Positions 6,479 to 16,308 of a stretch of DNA of 48,730 nt are shown piece by piece (position 1 is the first letter of the stretch; each line of letters begins with the position of its first letter). This DNA comes from Rubritepida sp. (lineage in GTDB: Bacteria; Pseudomonadota; Alphaproteobacteria; Acetobacterales; Acetobacteraceae): positions 1 through 48,730 of the forward strand of contig JAQGHY010000032.1 in NCBI GenBank assembly GCA_028291455.1, in the 5' to 3' direction. Position numbers and translations under genes: made by a program. A model generated the notes under the pieces. It was not told where the DNA came from. It saw nothing but the letters and a program-made list of their open reading frames with translations, and ran no database searches.

Positions 6479-7630
6479 GTGGATTTCCGTCTCGACGAGG
6501 AACAGTCAGCTTTCCAATCGGTGGTGCGCGGCTTTGCCGAGCGCCACCTGGCGGAGGGTGCTGTCGAACGCGCGCATACCGTGGGCTTCCCGTGGGATGT
6601 GGCGAAGCGGATGGCCGACCAGGGCCTCTTCGGGATCATGCTGCCGGAAGAGGATGGCGGCGCCGGCGGCACGGTGTTCGATGCCGTGCTGGCGATGGAG
6701 CAGATCGCCCAGGTCTGCCCGCGCAGCGCCGATGTCCTGCAGGCCGGGAACTTCGGCGCCTTCCGGACCTTTGCGGAATATGCATCGCCTTATCAGAAGG
6801 AGCGGTTCTTCAAGCCGCTCCTGGCCGGCGAGGCGGTAGCCGCCGTCGGCATGACGGAGCCGGATGCGGGCTCCGCCCTCACGGATCTCAAGACGAACTG
6901 CACGCCCGACGGCGATGGCTGGCGGCTGAACGGCCAGAAGGTCTTCACCACCAATAGCTCAGAGGCGAGTGTCTTCGTCATCTACTGCCGCTTCGGGCCC
7001 GGTGTCGGCGGCATCGGCTCGGTGCTGGTGGAGCGCGGGATGGAGGGTTTTCGCCTCGGCAAACCCAGCCTCTACATGAATGACGAGGAGTGGTGCGCCC
7101 TCTACTTCGACGACGTCTATATCTCGCCCGAGATGGTGCTGCTCGGCCCCGGCGGCTTCAAGAAGCAGATCGGCGGCTTCAATGTCGAGCGCGTGGGCAA
7201 TACCACGCGGGCGCTGGCGCTGGGCGAATACTGCTTCTCGGCAGCGCGCGAGCACGCGATGACGCGCACGCAGTTCGGCCGCAAGCTCATGGAGTCCCAA
7301 GGCCTGCAGTGGAAGTTCGCGGAGATGCGGGTGGCGCTGGATAGCGCGCGGCTGCTGCTCTATCGCGCAGCAGTGAATGCCGGGCGCGGATTGCCGGATG
7401 CCCAGGAGGTCGCGCTCGCCAAATATGCCTGCAACCAGGCGGGTTGGATGGCTTCGAACGAGTCCATGCAGGTGATGGGCGGCATGGGCTATTCGAAGGA
7501 CCTCCTGATCGAATACTGCGTCCGCCGCACGCGCGGCTGGATGATCGCGGGCGGCAGCCTGGAGGTGTTGAAGAACCGCATCGCGGAGGGGGTCTTTGGG
7601 CAGAGCTTTTCACAGAGGCCGCCGAAATGA
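6479..7630 (+). CDS. Acyl-CoA dehydrogenase family protein
   Basis: An FAD-dependent acyl-CoA dehydrogenase of 383 residues that would introduce the alpha-beta double bond into an acyl-CoA. Family blocks are present: helical N-terminal domain, FAD-binding GMTEPDAGSAL near residue 124-134, KVFTTNSSEAS near 154-164, the RTQFGRKL segment near 263-270 and MQVMGGMGYSKD near 330-341. The usual catalytic Glu in the C-terminal IYEGT motif is replaced: the segment reads IAGGS (residues 356-360, Gly at 358). A Glu is present at residue 237 in GFNVER, the position used by isovaleryl- and long-chain acyl-CoA dehydrogenases. Start is GTG 6479; the stop overlaps the next gene by ATGA. Confidence 0.9.
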   Translation: MDFRLDEEQSAFQSVVRGFAERHLAEGAVERAHTVGFPWDVAKRMADQGLFGIMLPEEDGGAGGTVFDAVLAMEQIAQVCPRSADVLQAGNFGAFRTFAEYASPYQKERFFKPLLAGEAVAAVGMTEPDAGSALTDLKTNCTPDGDGWRLNGQKVFTTNSSEASVFVIYCRFGPGVGGIGSVLVERGMEGFRLGKPSLYMNDEEWCALYFDDVYISPEMVLLGPGGFKKQIGGFNVERVGNTTRALALGEYCFSAAREHAMTRTQFGRKLMESQGLQWKFAEMRVALDSARLLLYRAAVNAGRGLPDAQEVALAKYACNQAGWMASNESMQVMGGMGYSKDLLIEYCVRRTRGWMIAGGSLEVLKNRIAEGVFGQSFSQRPPK

Positions 7631-9663
7631 AGGCGCTCCTGGCACCGGCCAGCATCGCGCTGATCGGTGCCTCTGGCGACCCCGCACGGCTTACGGCGCG
7701 GGCGCAGATCTACTTGCGCAAGCATGGCTATGCGGGCGCACTTTACCCGGTGAATCCGCGCTCGGCCGAGGTGCTGGGCGAGAAGGCCTATGCCCGCGTC
7801 GAGGACATCCCGGCCGAGATCGACTTCGCCTACATCCTGCTCGGCACGGAGCAGGTGGAATCGCAGATCGCCGCCGTAGCAGCCAAAGGCGCGAAGGTGG
7901 CCTGCATCCTTGCCGATGGCTTTGCCGAGGCGGGGCCGGCCGGCCTTGCCCTGCAGGAGCGTTGCCTGGCAGCGGCCAAGGCCGCCGGGCTGCGGCTGCT
8001 CGGCCCCAATTCCATGGGCATCATCAACATCCCCGCGAAGATCGCAGCCAGCGTGAACGCGGCGCTGGAGGCGGAGACGCTGCCCCTCGGGCGGCTCGCG
8101 CTGGTCAGCCAGTCCGGCTCCATGCTTGGCGCCATCATGAGCCGTGGGGCCGCGCGCGGCCTCGGCTTTAGCCATATGATCGCCACGGGCAACGAGGCCG
8201 ACCTGACCGCGGGCGAGATCGCCGCCATGCTGGTCGAAGACCCCGGCGTGGATGCGGTGATGCTGTTCCTGGAGGCGATCCGCGCGCCGGAGCAGTTCGC
8301 ACGCGCCGCCGCGCTTGCGCATCGCGCGGGCAAGCCGCTGATTGCCTACAAGCTCGGCCGCTCCTCCTTCGGTGCCGAGCTGGCCACCAGCCACACCGGC
8401 GCACTTGCCGGCAGCGATGCCGCCGCCGAGGCGTTCTTCCGCGCCCACGGCATCCTGCGCGCGACCATGCTGGAAAGCTTTCTGGAGCTCCCCGCCCTGG
8501 TTCTCGGCCGTAAGCCGCTGGTGAACGCGCATCGTGCCGTCTCGGTGCTGACGACCACGGGCGGTGGCGGCGCGATGGTGGTGGATGCGCTTGGCGTCGC
8601 GGGCATCGAGGCGCGCGCACCGGATGCGGCCGCCGCCGAAAAGCTGCATGCCGTCGGCATGCAGGCCCATGGCCGCCTCCTCGACATGACGCTCGCCGGC
8701 ACCAAGCCGGAGCGGATCGAGGCCGCGATCACCGCACTTGCCACCGCACAAGACACGGACGCGGTGATCCCCGTCATCGGTTCCTCCGCACAGTTCCGCC
8801 CCGCCGATGCCGTCGCTGGGATCCTGCGCGGGCGTGATGCGGCGGGCGGCGGCAAGCCCATCGCGGCTTTCCTTGTGCCGCAGGCCGATGCCTCGCTGGA
8901 CCTGCTCGCGGAGGCGGGCATTCCCGCCTTTCGCACGCCCGAAAGCCTGGCCGACGCCATGCGCGCCTATCTCAACTGGCAGGGCCCCAATCCGCCGGCA
9001 TCCCTGCCCGCGCCAGAGATTACGCTGCCAGAGGCGCCCGATGAGGCGGATGCGCGCGATCTCTTCGCCGCCCTCGGCCTCGCCACCCCCTTTGCGCGCA
9101 TGCGGACCCCGGCGGATATCCCGGACGACATGCGCTACCCGGTTGCGCTGAAAATCCTCTCGCCGGACATCGCGCATAAAACAGAGATGGGCGGTGTCGC
9201 GCTCAACATCCCCGACGCGGATGCGCTGCGTGAGGCCGCGACGAAGATGGGCGCGACCGTAGCCGTTGCCGCGCTGGATGCGCGCCTCACCGGCTTCCTC
9301 GTCCAGCCCATGGCGCGCGGCCTCGCCGAGGTCATCCTCGGCTTCCGGCGCGATCCCGAGGTCGGCCCCGTCGTGCTGCTCGGCGCCGGCGGCGTGCTGG
9401 CGGAGCTGCATCGCGACGTGACGCTCCGCCTCGCCCCAGTCGACGAGGCCGGTGCGCGATCGATGATCGCGGACGTCCGTGCCCTTCGCGTCATCGAGGG
9501 CTGGCGCGGCCTGCCGCGCGGTGATGTGGAGGCGCTGGTCCGGGCCATCGTCGCCGTCTCGCGGCTCGCCGCCCTGCCGGAAATCCGCGAGGCGGAGATC
9601 AATCCGCTGATGATTCACGAGAGCGGCGTCACCGTCGCCGATGCCTGGGTGGTGCGCCAATGA
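7627..9663 (+). CDS. Acyl-CoA synthetase (NDP-forming), fused alpha-beta
   Basis: A 678-residue single-chain acid-CoA ligase of the ADP-forming acetyl-CoA synthetase family, which interconverts acid + CoA + ATP and acyl-CoA + ADP + phosphate through a phosphohistidine. Order of domains: CoA-binding Rossmann (about 1-130, IALIGASGDP), succinyl-CoA-ligase-like (about 150-300) and a C-terminal ATP-grasp domain (about 480-678, with PVALKILSPDIAHKTEMGG). The catalytic His is H256 in SHTGALAGSDAA. ATG 7627 overlaps the acyl-CoA dehydrogenase stop, which fixes the start although the frame stays open upstream. Together with the two preceding genes it suggests activation and oxidation of an organic acid; the substrate cannot be told from sequence. 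Confidence 0.93.
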   Translation: MKALLAPASIALIGASGDPARLTARAQIYLRKHGYAGALYPVNPRSAEVLGEKAYARVEDIPAEIDFAYILLGTEQVESQIAAVAAKGAKVACILADGFAEAGPAGLALQERCLAAAKAAGLRLLGPNSMGIINIPAKIAASVNAALEAETLPLGRLALVSQSGSMLGAIMSRGAARGLGFSHMIATGNEADLTAGEIAAMLVEDPGVDAVMLFLEAIRAPEQFARAAALAHRAGKPLIAYKLGRSSFGAELATSHTGALAGSDAAAEAFFRAHGILRATMLESFLELPALVLGRKPLVNAHRAVSVLTTTGGGGAMVVDALGVAGIEARAPDAAAAEKLHAVGMQAHGRLLDMTLAGTKPERIEAAITALATAQDTDAVIPVIGSSAQFRPADAVAGILRGRDAAGGGKPIAAFLVPQADASLDLLAEAGIPAFRTPESLADAMRAYLNWQGPNPPASLPAPEITLPEAPDEADARDLFAALGLATPFARMRTPADIPDDMRYPVALKILSPDIAHKTEMGGVALNIPDADALREAATKMGATVAVAALDARLTGFLVQPMARGLAEVILGFRRDPEVGPVVLLGAGGVLAELHRDVTLRLAPVDEAGARSMIADVRALRVIEGWRGLPRGDVEALVRAIVAVSRLAALPEIREAEINPLMIHESGVTVADAWVVRQ

Positions 9664-10475: not shown

Positions 10476-11154
10476 GGGCGACGATAATCCCGGCGGCGCC
10501 GATGCCGGTGGGCCGCCGCCCAAGCGCGCCGTCATCCCCAAGGATGCTGCCAGCATCATCCTCTGGCGTAAGGGCGCGCGCGGCACCGAAATCCTGATGG
10601 GCCGCCGCCACCGCGACATGCGGTTCATGCCGGGCGTGCTGGTCTTCCCGGGCGGCCGAGTGGATCTTGAGGACCGTCACACGCGCAGCACCAGCGACCT
10701 GGGGCCTGAGGCCCAACGGATGCTGGAACTCAGCGCGACGCCCAGTCGTGCCAGGGCACTCGCCGTCTGCGCTTTGCGCGAAATGCATGAGGAAACCGGC
10801 TTGGTCATGGGCAGGATCGACGAAGGGTCCGGCCGCCTCTGTCCCGACCTCGCCCCGGTCGGCTACCTGACCCGCGCCATTACCCCGGCCGACAGACCCA
10901 TGCGCTTCCACGCGCGCTTCCTCATCGCCGAGGCGAAGCACGCCACCGGGGAGATCCAAGGCTCCGGTGAGCTGGAGGAAGTGCGCTTCTTCGCACTGGA
11001 CGAGCTGCACGCGCAGCCCGTCGCGAAGATCACCGCCCTGGTCCTCGAAGAGTTCGAGGCTTGGCTGGCCATGACCCCGGTGCAGCGGGCGAAGCGGGAG
11101 CTCGTCCGCATCCAGGGCAAGGACAACCGCGTAGTCGAAAAGCGGCGCGGTTAA
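10468..11154 (+). CDS. Nudix hydrolase
   Basis: A 228-residue Nudix hydrolase. FPGGRVDLED (near residues 56-65) and ALREMHEETGL (near 105-115) form the two halves of the Nudix box, separated by a longer insert than in the minimal motif, as in NUDT7/NUDT19-like proteins that act on CoA derivatives. The first 20 residues are low-complexity (GG, PPP). No ATG or GTG lies between the nitroreductase stop and the conserved region; TTG 10468, which overlaps the nitroreductase end by eight bases (TTGACTAA), is the best start. It ends convergent with hyuB, with a four-base overlap of stop codons. A CoA-derivative substrate would fit the operon, but that is inference. Confidence 0.87.
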   Translation: MTKGDDNPGGADAGGPPPKRAVIPKDAASIILWRKGARGTEILMGRRHRDMRFMPGVLVFPGGRVDLEDRHTRSTSDLGPEAQRMLELSATPSRARALAVCALREMHEETGLVMGRIDEGSGRLCPDLAPVGYLTRAITPADRPMRFHARFLIAEAKHATGEIQGSGELEEVRFFALDELHAQPVAKITALVLEEFEAWLAMTPVQRAKRELVRIQGKDNRVVEKRRG

Positions 11155-12821
11155 ACCCCGTAGAGCCGCTTGGCCTCGCTTTCGCTGACCAGCCCATCCG
11201 CCACATCCTGCGCCACCAGCGCCGGATCACGCTCCTTCGGATCGCCCATGCCGCCGCCGCCCGGCAGCAGCAGCACGAGATGCCGACCCTTGGGGATCAC
11301 CTGGAACCCCTTGGTCCGCAGCACGGTGTCATTGGCGTCGTCCAGCCCCACCCAACCGGCCGCGCCCAGGCCGCCGCCGAAACGGCCCTTGGGCGGATTG
11401 GCCACCCGGTCGAAGACGGCATTTACCGCGAATTCTGCATCCTTCTTCGCGCCGATCTCCATGATCTGGCCGAAGCCGCCGCGCGTGCGGCCGGCGCCGG
11501 CGCTGTCGGGCCGCAGTTCCTTCCGCCAGAAGATCACCGGCGCCACGTTTTCCGTGGCTTCCACCGGCATGGTCCGGACGCCCGACGGGAAGGCAATGCC
11601 GTCCAGCCCGTCCTTCGTCGGCCGCGCGCCGGTGCCGCCGGAATTGAAGGTGATGATCTCGAAATCATCGACCTCGGCATCCTGACCGGAGACCTGCGAT
11701 CCCCCGCGCAAAGGCGGGTTCCACAGCGCCGAGCTGCCCTCGGCATTCACGCGATCCGGCAGGGCCTGTGAAAGGCAGCCCATCATGAGGTCGGGGAGCA
11801 GTTGCCCAACAACGTGCCGCACGCTGACAGGATAAGGCCGCGGCGCATTGAGAATGCAGCCCTCCGGGATCTTCATGACGAAGGGCGAGAGGCTCGCCCA
11901 GTTGTTCGGAATCTCCGGCGCGACGACGCATTTGATTCCGAAGCAGGCATAGGCGCGGCAATAGGCCGGCGGCACGTTGATGCCGCGCGTCGAAAGCCCC
12001 GTGGTGCCGGTGTAGTCGACAATGATCTCGCCATCCTCGGCGCGCATCGCCGCATGCAGCGTGACCGGCGCCTCATAGCCATCCGAGCGGATTTCGGAGT
12101 GCCAGACCGTGCCCTGCGGCAGCTTGGCGATCTCGGCGCGGGTGGCGGAAAGGCTGCTCTCGAAGATGAAGCCGGCCAGATCCTCCAGCCCCTCCATCCG
12201 GTACTCGTCCATCATTTCGACGAGGCGCTTGGCGCCGGCATCGTTGCAGGCGCAGAGCGAATAGACGTCACCTTCCAGCTCCACCGGCGTGCGGCTACCT
12301 ACGCGGATGAAGTCGAAGAAGGTCTCGTTCGGCATGCCGCGGTCGAAGCACTTCACGATGGGGATATAGAGCCCCTCCTCGAAGACCGAGCGCCCTTCAG
12401 GCCCCATGCCGAGGCCGCCGATGTCGATGATATGCGCGGTGTTGGCGAAGAGCCCGATGATCTTGCCCTTGCGGAAGGCAGGGCTGACGACGGTGAGGTC
12501 GTGCAGGTGTCCCGTCGCGAGCCAGGGATCGTTGGTGATGTAGTGATCGCCCGGCTGCATCGTCGCGGCCGGGAACTTCTTCAGGAAGTGCCCGACCGCC
12601 TCGGCCATCGAATTCACATGGCCCGGCGTGCCGGTAACGGCCTGCGCCATCATGCGACCTTCGAGGTCGAAAATGCCGGCCGAGAGATCACCCGCCTCGC
12701 GCACCGTGGTGCTGAAGGCGGTGCGGATCATGGTCTGGGCCTGCTCCTCCACCACCGCGATCAGGCGGTTCCATTGGATCTGGCGCTGGATTTTTTCGAG
12801 GGCTGACTTTTCCTGAATCAT
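11151..12821 (-). CDS. hyuB: HyuB: hydantoinase B / oxoprolinase-family subunit
   Basis: The 556-residue protein belongs to the HyuB/5-oxoprolinase C-half family, the partner of HyuA in ATP-dependent hydrolysis of cyclic amides or carboxylation of ketones. Conserved blocks include WNRLIAVVEEQAQTMIRTAFS near the N-terminus, SAGIFDLEGRM, PGDHYITNDPWLATGHLHD around residue 100, and the C-terminal LLLPGGGGMGDP. ATG 12821 (minus strand) has an AGGTG ribosome-binding site; the frame extends 13 codons upstream but enters AT-rich DNA without homology. Normally hyuB lies directly after hyuA; here an opposite-strand gene of about 0.6 kb separates them. Substrate unknown. Confidence 0.92.
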   Translation of the reverse strand: MIQEKSALEKIQRQIQWNRLIAVVEEQAQTMIRTAFSTTVREAGDLSAGIFDLEGRMMAQAVTGTPGHVNSMAEAVGHFLKKFPAATMQPGDHYITNDPWLATGHLHDLTVVSPAFRKGKIIGLFANTAHIIDIGGLGMGPEGRSVFEEGLYIPIVKCFDRGMPNETFFDFIRVGSRTPVELEGDVYSLCACNDAGAKRLVEMMDEYRMEGLEDLAGFIFESSLSATRAEIAKLPQGTVWHSEIRSDGYEAPVTLHAAMRAEDGEIIVDYTGTTGLSTRGINVPPAYCRAYACFGIKCVVAPEIPNNWASLSPFVMKIPEGCILNAPRPYPVSVRHVVGQLLPDLMMGCLSQALPDRVNAEGSSALWNPPLRGGSQVSGQDAEVDDFEIITFNSGGTGARPTKDGLDGIAFPSGVRTMPVEATENVAPVIFWRKELRPDSAGAGRTRGGFGQIMEIGAKKDAEFAVNAVFDRVANPPKGRFGGGLGAAGWVGLDDANDTVLRTKGFQVIPKGRHLVLLLPGGGGMGDPKERDPALVAQDVADGLVSESEAKRLYGV

Positions 12822-12858
12822 GGGTACACCTATTTCAGCTGTAATTTGGAGGAAATGC

Positions 12859-13434
12859 ATGAGTATCGATACGAAAGCTTCAGAGCGAAATCAAAAATGG
12901 GATAGACGTTATTTAGAACTGGGGAAATTTATTAGCGAATGGTCCAAATATCCAAATGCTAAGGTTGGCGCCGTAATAGTAAATCAGACTTACGGCAGAT
13001 TAATATCAACAGGATTTAACGGATTTCCCTCTAACGTCGAAGACAAAGTAGAGCGACTCAGTTCTCAGGAAATAAAATTATCAATGACTATTCACGCGGA
13101 GCAAAATGCGCTTCTGTTCGCCGGGCGCGAATCAAGAGGCTGCGATATATTCGTTATTGGGAAGCCAGTTTGCAGTATGTGCGCAACAATGATAATTCAA
13201 TCAGGAATAAAACGCGTGAAGGCCACTCGACCTGATTCGAATAGTGATTCAAAATGGGATAAAATCGGGCTTCGTGCAGTCTCGATGCTGCAAGAGGCAG
13301 GGATTGCATTTGAAGACATAACAGAAGAAGAGATTAGTGCTCTTCATATAGAAAATAGAAAGCCACGTGAATCTCTTCCTTATTCTGGCGCCTTTCTGGA
13401 TAGCCAAACAGACCTGTTTGACCAAGGCGGTTGA
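12859..13434 (+). CDS. dCMP-deaminase-like zinc-dependent nucleotide deaminase (AT-rich, acquired)
   Basis: A 191-residue protein of the cytidine/deoxycytidylate deaminase family. The zinc ligands are H79 in IHAEQNALLF, C105 and C108 in KPVCSMC, with E81 as proton shuttle; the N-terminal half (KWDRRYLELGKFISEWSK, KVGAVIV, ISTGFNGFPSNVED) is like phage and bacterial dCMP deaminases. The last 45 residues extend beyond the minimal domain. ATG 12859 has a perfect GGAGG six bases upstream. The DNA is strikingly AT-rich (21 G+C in the 60 bases from 12901, against 44 of 60 in hyuA from 13501), so it is probably a recent import. It lies between hyuB and hyuA on the opposite strand, with only 37 and 7 bases separating it from them. 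Deaminases can serve nucleotide metabolism of phages or nucleotide depletion in antiphage defence; the role here is not shown by sequence. Confidence 0.88.
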   Translation: MSIDTKASERNQKWDRRYLELGKFISEWSKYPNAKVGAVIVNQTYGRLISTGFNGFPSNVEDKVERLSSQEIKLSMTIHAEQNALLFAGRESRGCDIFVIGKPVCSMCATMIIQSGIKRVKATRPDSNSDSKWDKIGLRAVSMLQEAGIAFEDITEEEISALHIENRKPRESLPYSGAFLDSQTDLFDQGG

Positions 13435-13441
13435 TTTGCGT

Positions 13442-15526
13442 CTATCGCGTCATTTCGAGATAGCCGAGGCCATCCATCCGGCAGGTCCAACCCGGGCCCA
13501 CCAGCGTGCTCGTCTCGTCCTCGGCCACGATGCACGGTCCCGGCACTGTCGCGCCCGGGTTCATCTGCGTGCGGTCGTAGACCTGCCAGGTGGCGACCTC
13601 ACCAGTCGAGGTGTCGCGCACTTCCTGCGAGCGTATCGGCTCAGGCGCCGGCGCGTCGGCAACCTCGGCCACCGGCTTCACCGCATCCACTTGCGTGGCG
13701 ACGGTGACGGCGAAGCTCAGCACCTCGACATCGGAGCCCGGCACCGGGCGATCGTAGAAGCGGGTGTATTCGGCATCGTAGGCTGCGCGGATTGCCGCGA
13801 CATCCGCCTCCACCAGCGGCCGAACCGGCAGGGCGACGGCGATCTCATGCCCCTGCCCCACATAGCGCATGTAGCCGATGCGGTGCTCCACGGTTGGTGC
13901 GCCGAAGCTGCCCTCGGCAACGACCTTCGACGCTTCCGCACTCATCGAGGCCAGCAGTACGTTCACGCCGTCCACGTTGAAGTTCGCGAAGCGCGTGTAG
14001 AGGCTTTTCACCACCTCGTACCCGACCGGTGCGCGAAGGAAACCGATAGCTGAGCCCACGCCGGCGCCGCTCGGCACCAGCATCCGCTTCACGCCGATCT
14101 TCTCCGCCACGCGATAGCCATGCACGGGTCCGCCGCCGCCGAAAGCGATGATCGCGCGGCCCTCGTATGATTTGGCGCTCTCGATGGCATGGACGCGCGC
14201 CGCATTGGCCATGTTCTCATCCACCATCTCGACCACGCCTAGCGCCGCCATTCCGGCATCTAGCCCGAGGCCGTTGCCGACATGCTCGACAAGCGCCGCC
14301 TCAGCGGGCGCCCTCTTCAGCGGGAAGTTGCCGCCGGCGAAGGCGACCGGGTCGTATCGGCCCAGTGCCAAGTTGGCATCTGTCACGGCAGGCTTCGTGC
14401 CGCCGCGCCCATAGCAGGCCGGCCCCGGATCGGCGCCCGCGCTTTCCGGCCCGACCTGTATGCGGCCCAGGCTGTCCAGATGCGCCAGCGATCCGCCGCC
14501 GGCACCAATCTCTACCATCTCGATCACAGGAATTCGCAGCGGCAGGCCCGAGCCCTTGCGGAACCGCCCCACGCGGGCGACCTCGAAGGTCCGGCTGGCC
14601 TGGGGCGCGAAATCGTCGATGAGGCAAACCTTGGCCGTGGTGCCGCCCATGTCGAAGCTCAGCACCTTCGACCAGCCGCGCTGCTTGGCCACATGCGCCG
14701 AGAAGATTGCGCCGCCCGCAGGGCCGCTTTCCACCAGCCGGATCGGGAAGCGCGAGGCCGTCTCGATCGTGGTAAGCCCGCCGCCGGAGAGCATGAGGAA
14801 CAGCGGGCACATCACGCCACCCTCCCGCAGGCCGGCCTCGAGCCGCGCCAGGTAGCTCGCCATCATCGGCTGCACATAGGCATTGGCGGCGGTGGTGCTG
14901 AAGCGCTCCCACTCGCGCATTTCCGGGCTGACTTCGGAGCTCAGCGAGATCGGCAGATCCGCCCATTCCGCGCGGATGATCTCCGCCGTCCGCTGCTCAT
15001 GCGCCGGGTTCACGAAGCCGTGCAGATAGCCGATCGCAAGGCTCTCGATTCCCTCGGATATCAGGAAGGGGATCAGCGCCCGCACCGCTCCCTCGTCCAG
15101 CGGCTTGAGCACCTTGCCCGTATTGTCCAGCCGCTCGGGCACCGGCAGGCGCCAGCGCCGCGGCACCAGCGGCTTCGGTAGCTGGATATTGAGGTCGTAC
15201 TGGTCGTACCTGCTCTCATTGCCCAGCGCGAGAACGTCGCGGAAGCCTTCGGTGGTGATCAGCGCCGTCCGCGCGCCCTTGCGCTCGATCAGCGCATTGG
15301 TCGCCAAGGTCGTGCCATGGATCAGCAGCGTGACATCGCCGGCCGCCATGTCCGCGCGGGCCAGCACGGCCCGTACGCCGTCCAGCACGCCGAGTTCCGG
15401 GGCGTGCGGCGTGGTCAGGACCTTGACGGTCCACCGCTGGATCTGGTCCTCGGCGGTGATGGCCTCGATGGCGACGTCGGTGAAGGTGCCGCCGATATCG
15501 ACGGCGAGCCGCGCGTTGCTCACCAT
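13442..15526 (-). CDS. hyuA: HyuA: hydantoinase A / oxoprolinase-family ATPase subunit
   Basis: The 694-residue protein is the ATP-binding HyuA partner. It has an ASKHA-type phosphate-binding motif AVDIGGTFTDVAIE at the N-terminus, HGTTLATNALIERKG near residue 100, ESGPAGGAIFSAH and SFDMGGTTAKVCLID around 280-320, and ACYGRGGTKPAVTDANLALG near 400, all typical of the hydantoinase A/oxoprolinase domain. The start ATG 15526 overlaps the upstream SDR stop by seven bases, indicating an SDR-hyuA-hyuB operon. The gene ends only seven bases from the stop of the opposite-strand deaminase gene that separates it from hyuB. Confidence 0.93.
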   Translation of the reverse strand: MVSNARLAVDIGGTFTDVAIEAITAEDQIQRWTVKVLTTPHAPELGVLDGVRAVLARADMAAGDVTLLIHGTTLATNALIERKGARTALITTEGFRDVLALGNESRYDQYDLNIQLPKPLVPRRWRLPVPERLDNTGKVLKPLDEGAVRALIPFLISEGIESLAIGYLHGFVNPAHEQRTAEIIRAEWADLPISLSSEVSPEMREWERFSTTAANAYVQPMMASYLARLEAGLREGGVMCPLFLMLSGGGLTTIETASRFPIRLVESGPAGGAIFSAHVAKQRGWSKVLSFDMGGTTAKVCLIDDFAPQASRTFEVARVGRFRKGSGLPLRIPVIEMVEIGAGGGSLAHLDSLGRIQVGPESAGADPGPACYGRGGTKPAVTDANLALGRYDPVAFAGGNFPLKRAPAEAALVEHVGNGLGLDAGMAALGVVEMVDENMANAARVHAIESAKSYEGRAIIAFGGGGPVHGYRVAEKIGVKRMLVPSGAGVGSAIGFLRAPVGYEVVKSLYTRFANFNVDGVNVLLASMSAEASKVVAEGSFGAPTVEHRIGYMRYVGQGHEIAVALPVRPLVEADVAAIRAAYDAEYTRFYDRPVPGSDVEVLSFAVTVATQVDAVKPVAEVADAPAPEPIRSQEVRDTSTGEVATWQVYDRTQMNPGATVPGPCIVAEDETSTLVGPGWTCRMDGLGYLEMTR

Positions 15527-16308
15527 CCCCGGACCATGCCCCCGTCCGTCCGCATGATGCTGCCGGTGATATAGGCCGCCTGCTCGCTGCACAGGAACGC
15601 CACCAGCGGGCCGTATTCGCCCGGCAGGCCGTAGCGGCCGGCGGGAATGGTCTTGCTGCGCTCGGCCATCACCTCGTCGACCGACTTACCCTGCCGCTTG
15701 GCCAGCCCTTCCGCCGTCTCCAGGCTGCGATCGGTGCGGATCGCGCCGGGTGCGACGATGTTGCAGGTGATGCCCTCATGCGCCACCTCGGCCGAAAGCG
15801 TCTTGAGCCAGCCCATCACGCTGGCGCGCAATGCATTGCTCAGCACTAGGTTCGGGATCGGCTGCAGCATGCCCGAGCTGCCGACATTGATGATGCGCCC
15901 GAACTTCTGCGCCCGCATGCCCGGCAGCAGCTTGTTCGTCACGCGCATCGGCGAGAGCACGATGCGCTGGAACCAGGTGATCATCGCCTCCTCGGTCACA
16001 TCCAGCGCCGGACCCGGCGGCGGGCCGCCATGGTTCAGAATGACGATGTCCACGCCGCCCAACGCCTTCGTGGCGCCATCGGCCAGGATGTCCATCTGCG
16101 CGCTCTCGGCCACATCCGCCGGAATGCCGACGCAGGAGGCCGCGCCGAGCGACACCAGCTCGCGGCACGCCACGTCGAGGCTCGCCTGGCTGCGGCCGCT
16201 GATGACCAGCGCCGCGCCCTCCGCCGCCAGCGCGTCGGCGATCGAACGGCCGAGGCCTTTGGAAGCCCCCATTACCAGCGCGCGCTTGCCCTTGAGCCCC
16301 AGATCCAT
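15520..16308 (-). CDS. SDR-family protein lacking the catalytic Tyr and Lys (BKR-like)
   Basis: A 262-residue Rossmann protein of the short-chain dehydrogenase family. The cofactor loop is GASKGLG (residues 14-20), but NNAG is replaced by NHGGPPPG (92-99), and after the Ser pair at 144-145 the expected YxxxK is LSNAL, with Leu at 156 and 160. This combination fits the known BKR-like SDR-like subgroup, whose members lack the normal catalytic tetrad. It may bind NAD(P) without classic oxidoreductase chemistry or use other residues. First gene of the SDR-hyuA-hyuB operon. ATG 16308 is chosen because the Rossmann fold begins six residues later; the frame continues upstream without homology. Confidence 0.85.
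   Translation of the reverse strand: MDLGLKGKRALVMGASKGLGRSIADALAAEGAALVISGRSQASLDVACRELVSLGAASCVGIPADVAESAQMDILADGATKALGGVDIVILNHGGPPPGPALDVTEEAMITWFQRIVLSPMRVTNKLLPGMRAQKFGRIINVGSSGMLQPIPNLVLSNALRASVMGWLKTLSAEVAHEGITCNIVAPGAIRTDRSLETAEGLAKRQGKSVDEVMAERSKTIPAGRYGLPGEYGPLVAFLCSEQAAYITGSIMRTDGGMVRGW

Follow-up and report, generated by a model that had tools for sequence, protein, structure and literature searches.

An AT-rich gene for a probable dCMP deaminase lies antisense between hyuA and hyuB in Rubritepida sp.

Enzymes of the dCMP deaminase class are represented by the profile PF00383, by PHROG 174, and by the structures 2w4l, 7fh4, 1vq2, and 4p9c. The protein described here is like them in its zinc-binding and catalytic residues and in its fold; unlike them, it has a C-terminus modeled with low confidence, and its gene stands alone as a foreign-looking gene in a hydantoinase-type operon. 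In Gram-negative bacteria, dCTP deaminase lies on the route to dTTP (PMC10733785). AvcD and the anti-phage dCTP deaminases (NF041025) are like the present protein in the deaminase motif region. The type III toxin–antitoxin system AvcID is defined by an adjacent antitoxin RNA, and AvcI-type RNAs measure about 171 nt or more (PMC10511110).

With respect to genomic location, the described counterparts are defense hotspots in core genomes. Those of E. coli, as presented in PMC10121019, hold variable cargo between conserved genes and are mostly empty (median occupancy of 8% per hotspot), and the defense systems of this species are carried almost always by mobile elements. The hyuA–hyuB junction examined here likewise holds variable cargo between conserved genes and is mostly empty. 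The core genomes of P. aeruginosa have reportedly also been studied for defense integration hotspots, as a like system. Unlike the hotspots of either species, the hyuA–hyuB junction receives single small genes, without mobile machinery, in a tight operon junction, and, unlike defense hotspots, its insert rate is not above that of neighboring junctions.

The window, by which we mean the whole stretch of 48,730 nucleotides that was analyzed (contig JAQGHY010000032.1), carries an insert of this kind. The enzyme is of a known kind; what is unusual is its address and a geometry common to two genera. With the terms that we used, no description of hyu-junction inserts or of a lone dCMP deaminase insert was found in the open-licence literature. 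The explanation that we consider likely is that a lone foreign gene for a bacterial-type, accessory dCMP deaminase was inserted between hyuA and hyuB, and that a related gene arrived separately in Roseomonas nepalensis, a member of the same family but of another genus.

The insert and the empty sites

The features of the locus are collected in Table 1, where hyuA and hyuB are names carried over from the preliminary description and presumed to fit; SDR and, below, M20 are the names that we presume for neighboring genes of the operon. The preliminary description had reported a 191-codon gene with intact zinc-deaminase residues and its own GGAGG site, placed antisense between the two hyu genes. 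Each element was verified, including spacers of exactly 37 bp on the hyuB side and 7 bp on the hyuA side. The protein matches the Pfam profile PF00383 at 61.8 bits against a 25-bit cutoff, and an alignment of 23 rows shows no variation at H79, E81, C105, or C108.

Table 1. Features of the hyuA–hyuB junction in the window
Feature	Position	Strand	Basis or remark
Insert, approximate extent	12804..13444		Empty-site homology ends at 12803 and restarts at 13445
Deaminase CDS, 191 aa, dCMP-deaminase type (P0001)	12859..13434	+	Open reading frame list, profile and structure matches; ATG at 12859, stop ends at 13434
GGAGG ribosome-binding site of deaminase	12848..12852	+	6 bp 5' of the ATG
Spacer, 37 bp, between the divergent start codons of deaminase and hyuB	12822..12858		Contains a minus-strand AGGTG, SD-like for hyuB (by eye)
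Spacer, 7 bp, deaminase stop to hyuA stop	13435..13441
hyuB-like gene	11151..12821	-	Start codon at 12821; N-terminus unlike that at empty sites
hyuA-like gene, intact	13442..15529	-	Stop codon at insert edge (13442); start codon approximate
SDR-like gene upstream of hyuA	15520..16308	-	Used for control junctions

The genome that holds the window has been assembled as a draft of 356 contigs, with a completeness of 89.8%. It encodes two further PF00383 proteins elsewhere, and the insert is internal to one contig. A chimeric assembly is unlikely because the genome of R. nepalensis S9.3B shows the same arrangement. Over 188 aligned codons, the deaminase of that genome is 59.6% identical to the one in the window, with 59, 43, and 112 differences at the first, second, and third codon positions, respectively, and a dN of 0.33 (dS is not computable). 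This third-position bias suggests purifying selection. A chance open reading frame can be ruled out because the profile match is nearly full-length and because the divergence from the R. nepalensis copy is concentrated at third positions.

The G+C content had been put at about 35% inside the gene and 73% in hyuA. The contrast is real, but its size was somewhat overstated: over whole genes, the deaminase has 42.4% GC (about 33–55% in 60-bp bins) against 67.9% in hyuA, and its GC3 is 0.35 against 0.85 in both hyuA and hyuB. By its composition, the AT-rich gene looks foreign to its GC-rich host.

The hyu-junction DNA was searched in relatives, and 17 of 20 same-genus genomes were measurable (L019–L034 and L037); those left out are G013, in which hyuA and hyuB lie on different contigs, G019, whose contig ends near the junction, and G017, which is 57% complete and has a partial hyuB match that falls short of the junction. 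At 15 of the 17 junctions there is no insert of at least 300 bp. Thirteen junctions are tight, at −16 to −10 bp, with overlapping stop and start codons, and two have spacers of 43 and 52 bp (L021 and L022, from G006 and G010). At the remaining two the cargo is different: G005 (L019) has a DUF4062 protein there, and G020 (L020) has VapBC. The empty sites L024 and L037 have 17 bp where the window has about 640 bp. Ten paralogous hyu pairs are also without an insert to within about 40 bp, as judged by spacing in the junction search, and the deaminase was detected at E ≤ 1e-12 in 1 of 14 same-genus genomes drawn, which is the window's own. These empty sites, found by the comparison that the preliminary description had proposed, support its claim of a gained single-gene cargo lying antisense in a metabolic operon. 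It had itself named a pattern that would speak against this reading, in which relatives throughout the family carry the gene at this position with normal GC; we observed no such pattern. A single-gene gain is well supported.

Two side observations concern this junction in the same genus. The spacers of L021 and L022 have partly inverted ends (CCGAT...ATCGG), perhaps those of a small repeat element, and in G013 (L313 and L314) a gene that by eye resembles those for TRAP-transporter binding proteins adjoins hyuB.

One gene fills the insert, in which no integrase, transposase, or target-site duplication was seen by eye. With about 17 bp replaced, a single gene, and no duplication, the insert is unlike a mobile element or an integrative island. 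The absence of mobile genes is worth noting because E. coli defense systems are almost always mobile-borne (PMC10121019). Under the explanation that we favor, the foreign gene would have entered between hyuA and hyuB without an integrase or transposase of its own and would have replaced the approximately 17 bp holding the hyuA tail and the hyuB start. hyuA would have received a new stop codon and hyuB a new SD-like sequence and start, leaving both readable with their overlap lost. In both species an SD-like sequence for hyuB can be read by eye in the adjoining spacer (AGGTG in the window, GGAAGGA in R. nepalensis), together with the hyuB start, which would keep hyuB translatable after loss of the overlap with hyuA. 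Transcription from hyuA to hyuB would run antisense through the deaminase gene. A search for a promoter or terminator of the deaminase gave nothing above chance; the lone promoter-like match is internal to the gene and at chance level.

Protein class and likely role

The protein matches phrog_174 (dCMP deaminase) with E = 3.1e-35, and a profile search of the PDB places 7fh4 (PBCV-1 dCMP/dCTP deaminase), 2w4l (human dCMP deaminase), and 1vq2 (T4 dCMP deaminase) at the top. The AlphaFold model has a mean pLDDT of 83.4, with low values from residue 167 onward. When it was compared with known structures by Foldseek, ranks 1–13 were all dCMP or dCMP/dCTP deaminases, with TM-scores of 0.55–0.63 by query and 0.65–0.84 by target; RibD, TadA, and cytosine deaminases ranked lower. 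These last three are related deaminases with the same fold, which counts against the dCMP assignment. The match to the ComEB-type model TIGR02571 reaches 41.4 bits, below its equivalog cutoff of 219.45. We take H79, C105, and C108 to bind the zinc and E81 to act as catalytic acid/base, in a reaction that would most likely convert dCMP to dUMP.

A gap in the dUMP pathway that this enzyme would fill was ruled out, as dCTP deaminase (Dcd) scored above its cutoff in all seven genomes tested, including those of the window and of R. nepalensis. An accessory role is probable because the host dCTP deaminase is present in all seven. Judged from sequence and model, the protein is probably a stand-alone accessory dCMP-to-dUMP enzyme. 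The dUMP made would feed thymidylate synthesis, or dCMP would be drained, alongside the host dCTP deaminase.

Kinship with defense-type dCTP deaminases, which had been raised as a possibility, was not supported: the anti-phage model NF041025 scores 36.1 bits against a cutoff of 400 and covers residues 75–120 only (46 residues matched of a 437-position model), and the PADLOC dCTPase model scores 37 bits with a best stretch of 49 residues. These scores also weigh against the gene being a stand-alone anti-phage gene in a small defense site that drains dCMP or dCTP on infection, like AvcD and the anti-phage dCTP deaminases. Such a gene would encode a deaminase without an AvcD-type regulatory domain or RNA antitoxin. 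The two spacers, at 37 and 7 bp, are too short to hold an AvcI-like RNA outside the coding sequence, so the adjacent RNA that defines AvcID has no place there. Further evidence on this reading comes from the other cargo of the junction, as discussed below.

Roseomonas nepalensis and the origin of the gene

A family scan with the deaminase protein (E ≤ 1e-12), covering 397 genomes drawn evenly from the larger group, gave matches in 35. In one of these, R. nepalensis S9.3B (contig NZ_RCZP01000012.1), a related deaminase occupies the same hyuA–hyuB junction in the same orientation, with spacers of 39 and 7 bp versus 37 and 7 bp in the window. This junction copy has a GC content of 50% and a GC3 of 0.46, and the genome also has a second deaminase, of native GC and Roseomonas type. 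In the genus of R. nepalensis, 12 of the 14 measured junctions are empty, one holds this deaminase, and one holds a DUF4357 protein.

When hyuA sequences were placed in a tree (139 rows), that of the window fell among 18 rows from its genus (support 95) and that of R. nepalensis among 10 rows from the Roseomonas genus (support 100). The hyu genes track the genera imperfectly because 3 of the 14 Roseomonas-genus hyuA rows (L128, L129, and L131) stand apart from the rest. Over the last 100 nt of hyuA, identity to the window is 85% for R. nepalensis and 76–84% for ten other Roseomonas genomes; over the first stretch of hyuB, the values are 93% and 92–96%, respectively. Between the window and its congeners, identity changes without a sharp step toward the junction, except at the variable hyuB start. 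Given the hyuA tree and these junction-near identities, there is no sign of long hyu flanks traveling with the insert. Recombination between the genera that would have brought hyu flanks along was considered and found unsupported by the same data. The near-identical geometry could reflect one old insertion that was lost many times or a transfer with very short flanks.

The first of these options is an insertion that is not recent: it would have entered the hyu operon in an ancestor shared by the two genera and been mostly lost later. It would account for the shared orientation and spacers, and a tree in which both junction deaminases are constrained to one clade fits marginally better than the unconstrained one (lnL +3.6, p-AU 0.61). 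It would, however, require clean loss many times over, restoring tight or overlapping junctions in 13 of 17 and 12 of 14 cases, and genes of such age would be expected to have drifted in composition, whereas theirs is 42% and 50% GC with flanks at 65–73%. We regard it as distinctly unlikely. In the explanation that we favor, the related deaminase would have reached the same junction in R. nepalensis on its own.

The deaminase tree was built by a quick method from 57 sequences and has moderate support (the distant rows L217–L219 were dropped, L220–L253 were not entered, and L255 was represented by its 190 C-terminal residues). In this tree, the two hyu-junction deaminases branch off one after the other below the native-GC Roseomonas and Pseudoroseomonas deaminases, with SH-aLRT values of 87, 85, and 99 at the forks that place the junction deaminase outside these relatives. 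After R. nepalensis, these chromosomal proteins (26 tree rows: L177–L199, L212, L215, and L216) are the nearest, at 48–57% identity; unlike the AT-rich junction copies, their genes have native GC (63–74%). Their neighbors are largely common within each genus (18 loci), none of the 18 loci clusters with the hyu flanks, and at two loci inspected by eye the neighbors appear to be of housekeeping type, with a release-factor-3-like gene in L178 and a diaminopimelate-epimerase-like gene in L193. Native GC and largely common neighbors make these relatives look vertically inherited. A tree placing the gene among vertically inherited housekeeping deaminases had been named beforehand as evidence against a gain; the junction gene does adjoin such deaminases but branches outside them. 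No donor of the AT-rich copies was found among the sequences compared, of which the nearest to the window deaminase is 58–60% identical (R. nepalensis).

A phage-derived nucleotide enzyme, left as a phage remnant, had also been suggested. Relatives of the deaminase do occur in 1505 of 50,697 phage records, the match to phrog_174 is in keeping with such a source, and one phage row (L258) lies on the side of the bacterial sequences in the tree, at the end of a very long branch. The best identity to any phage or viral contig is, however, 43–44%, well short of that to R. nepalensis, and the insert is without any phage gene. Grouping the junction deaminases with 11 phage rows was rejected by the AU test (p-AU 5.4e-5), for which the phage sample was small (7 of the 1505 phage records and 4 viral contigs, with L258 left out). 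On this small sample phage origin is disfavored, and it is the reading to which we give the least credence.

Plasmid relatives were found in 36 of 72,556 records, the best being on a conjugative Shewanella baltica plasmid (50.7%). On the Rhizobium sp. CB3090 plasmid pCB3090_3 (L175, approximately 7154–7678), a relative at 33% identity, for which the incomplete PLSDB table lists no gene, adjoins NUDIX and HAD genes in a TniB/TniQ (Tn7-like) setting. On the conjugative Vibrio campbellii plasmid pLMB143 (L174), a relative lies near a HEPN-domain gene and a Tn3 transposase.

Cargo at the junction across the family

We collected 150 junction loci, each from a different genome. Most were top-scoring rows among the matches listed in a scan in which 231 of 397 genomes matched, a sample biased to closer relatives; 143 were measurable, and an insert was defined as at least 300 bp. 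Inserts are present at 20 of the 143 hyuA–hyuB junctions, or 21 of 144 when the window is counted. The control junctions gave 11 of 66 (M20-hydrolase-like gene to hyuA), 3 of 52 (SDR to M20), and 0 of 14 (SDR to hyuA). The insert rate at hyuA–hyuB is not elevated, because Fisher tests give p = 0.68 against the M20–hyuA control and p = 0.37 against all controls (14 of 132). A hotspot defined by insert rate, which initial control counts of 4 of 47, 0 of 40, and 0 of 11 had suggested, was accordingly dropped when the larger sample gave these values. The composition of the inserts does differ. AT-rich inserts (GC < 0.56) occur at 7 of 144 hyuA–hyuB junctions and at 0 of 132 controls (p = 0.015), and they make up 7 of 21 inserts versus 0 of 14 (p = 0.027), with a threshold that was in both comparisons chosen after the data had been seen.

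For clustering of the cargo, only tblastx links below 1e-30 were used, as a threshold of 1e-6 falsely joins GC-rich inserts. Visual inspection covered 8 of the 14 control inserts. VapC-type PIN genes occur in three genera (L020, L098, and L274; VapB was confirmed in L020 only), and DUF4357 proteins occur in three (L098, L129, and L166; the Pfam score is above the cutoff in L166 and below it in L098 and L129). The deaminase is found in two genera, other PIN genes in one further genus (L123 and L299), DUF3574 in two (Pfam was run on L108 only), and a small protein with a weak, below-cutoff ABM match in three (L124, L154, and L171), in addition to six singles. Three cargo proteins were given to PADLOC: the DUF4357 protein of L129 was returned as candidate PDC-S14 (E = 1.6e-57), and the DUF4062 protein and that of L168 had no match.

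Several details of the cargo were recorded alongside. The VapC-like PIN genes of L020, L098, and L274 are about 65–70% alike in their best tblastx pieces, and in L098 the DUF4357 gene lies beside the PIN gene, as if cargo stacks. By eye, the three DUF4357 proteins have a GIY-YIG-like look, and Pfam reports DUF4357 alone. The DUF4062 protein of G005 (L019:1268-2407, 379 aa) is encoded on the operon's strand in an insert of 41% GC. Related small genes lie between the M20-type hydrolase gene and hyuA in L262, L268, and L310, from two genera; we presume a DUF29-like character for them.

This company bears on the anti-phage reading introduced above. The VapC-type PIN genes, the DUF4357 protein matching PDC-S14, the DUF4062 protein, and the PIN/Phd genes at the same junction would fit a small defense site, as would the AT-rich share of the inserts (7 of 21 against 0 of 14 at controls). 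Against it, two of the three cargo proteins given to PADLOC matched nothing, other junction cargo looks metabolic, secreted, or unknown, and the two native-GC relatives inspected by eye adjoin housekeeping-like genes. Taken with the profile scores and the short spacers, this leaves the reading unlikely, and a defense role, as judged from sequence, is unproven.

A bolder conjecture, which we consider very improbable, is that the hyuA–hyuB junction serves as an integrase-free docking site for AT-rich one-gene defense or toxin–antitoxin modules, with the deaminase silenced by antisense transcription from the hyu operon until phage infection. If it were true, modules would arrive independently at nearly the same base in Roseomonas-like bacteria, and the deaminase would be a minimal nucleotide-draining defense gene, freed when a phage stops host transcription.

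Our findings support a lone foreign gene as the likely explanation and provide a clean, checkable one-gene insertion into a tight operon junction that has left both neighbors intact. The same place and geometry recur in two genera without sign that the hyu flanks traveled along. Surveys that locate genomic islands by integrases or tRNA genes would miss small cargo of this sort if it reaches such junctions with no mobile machinery.
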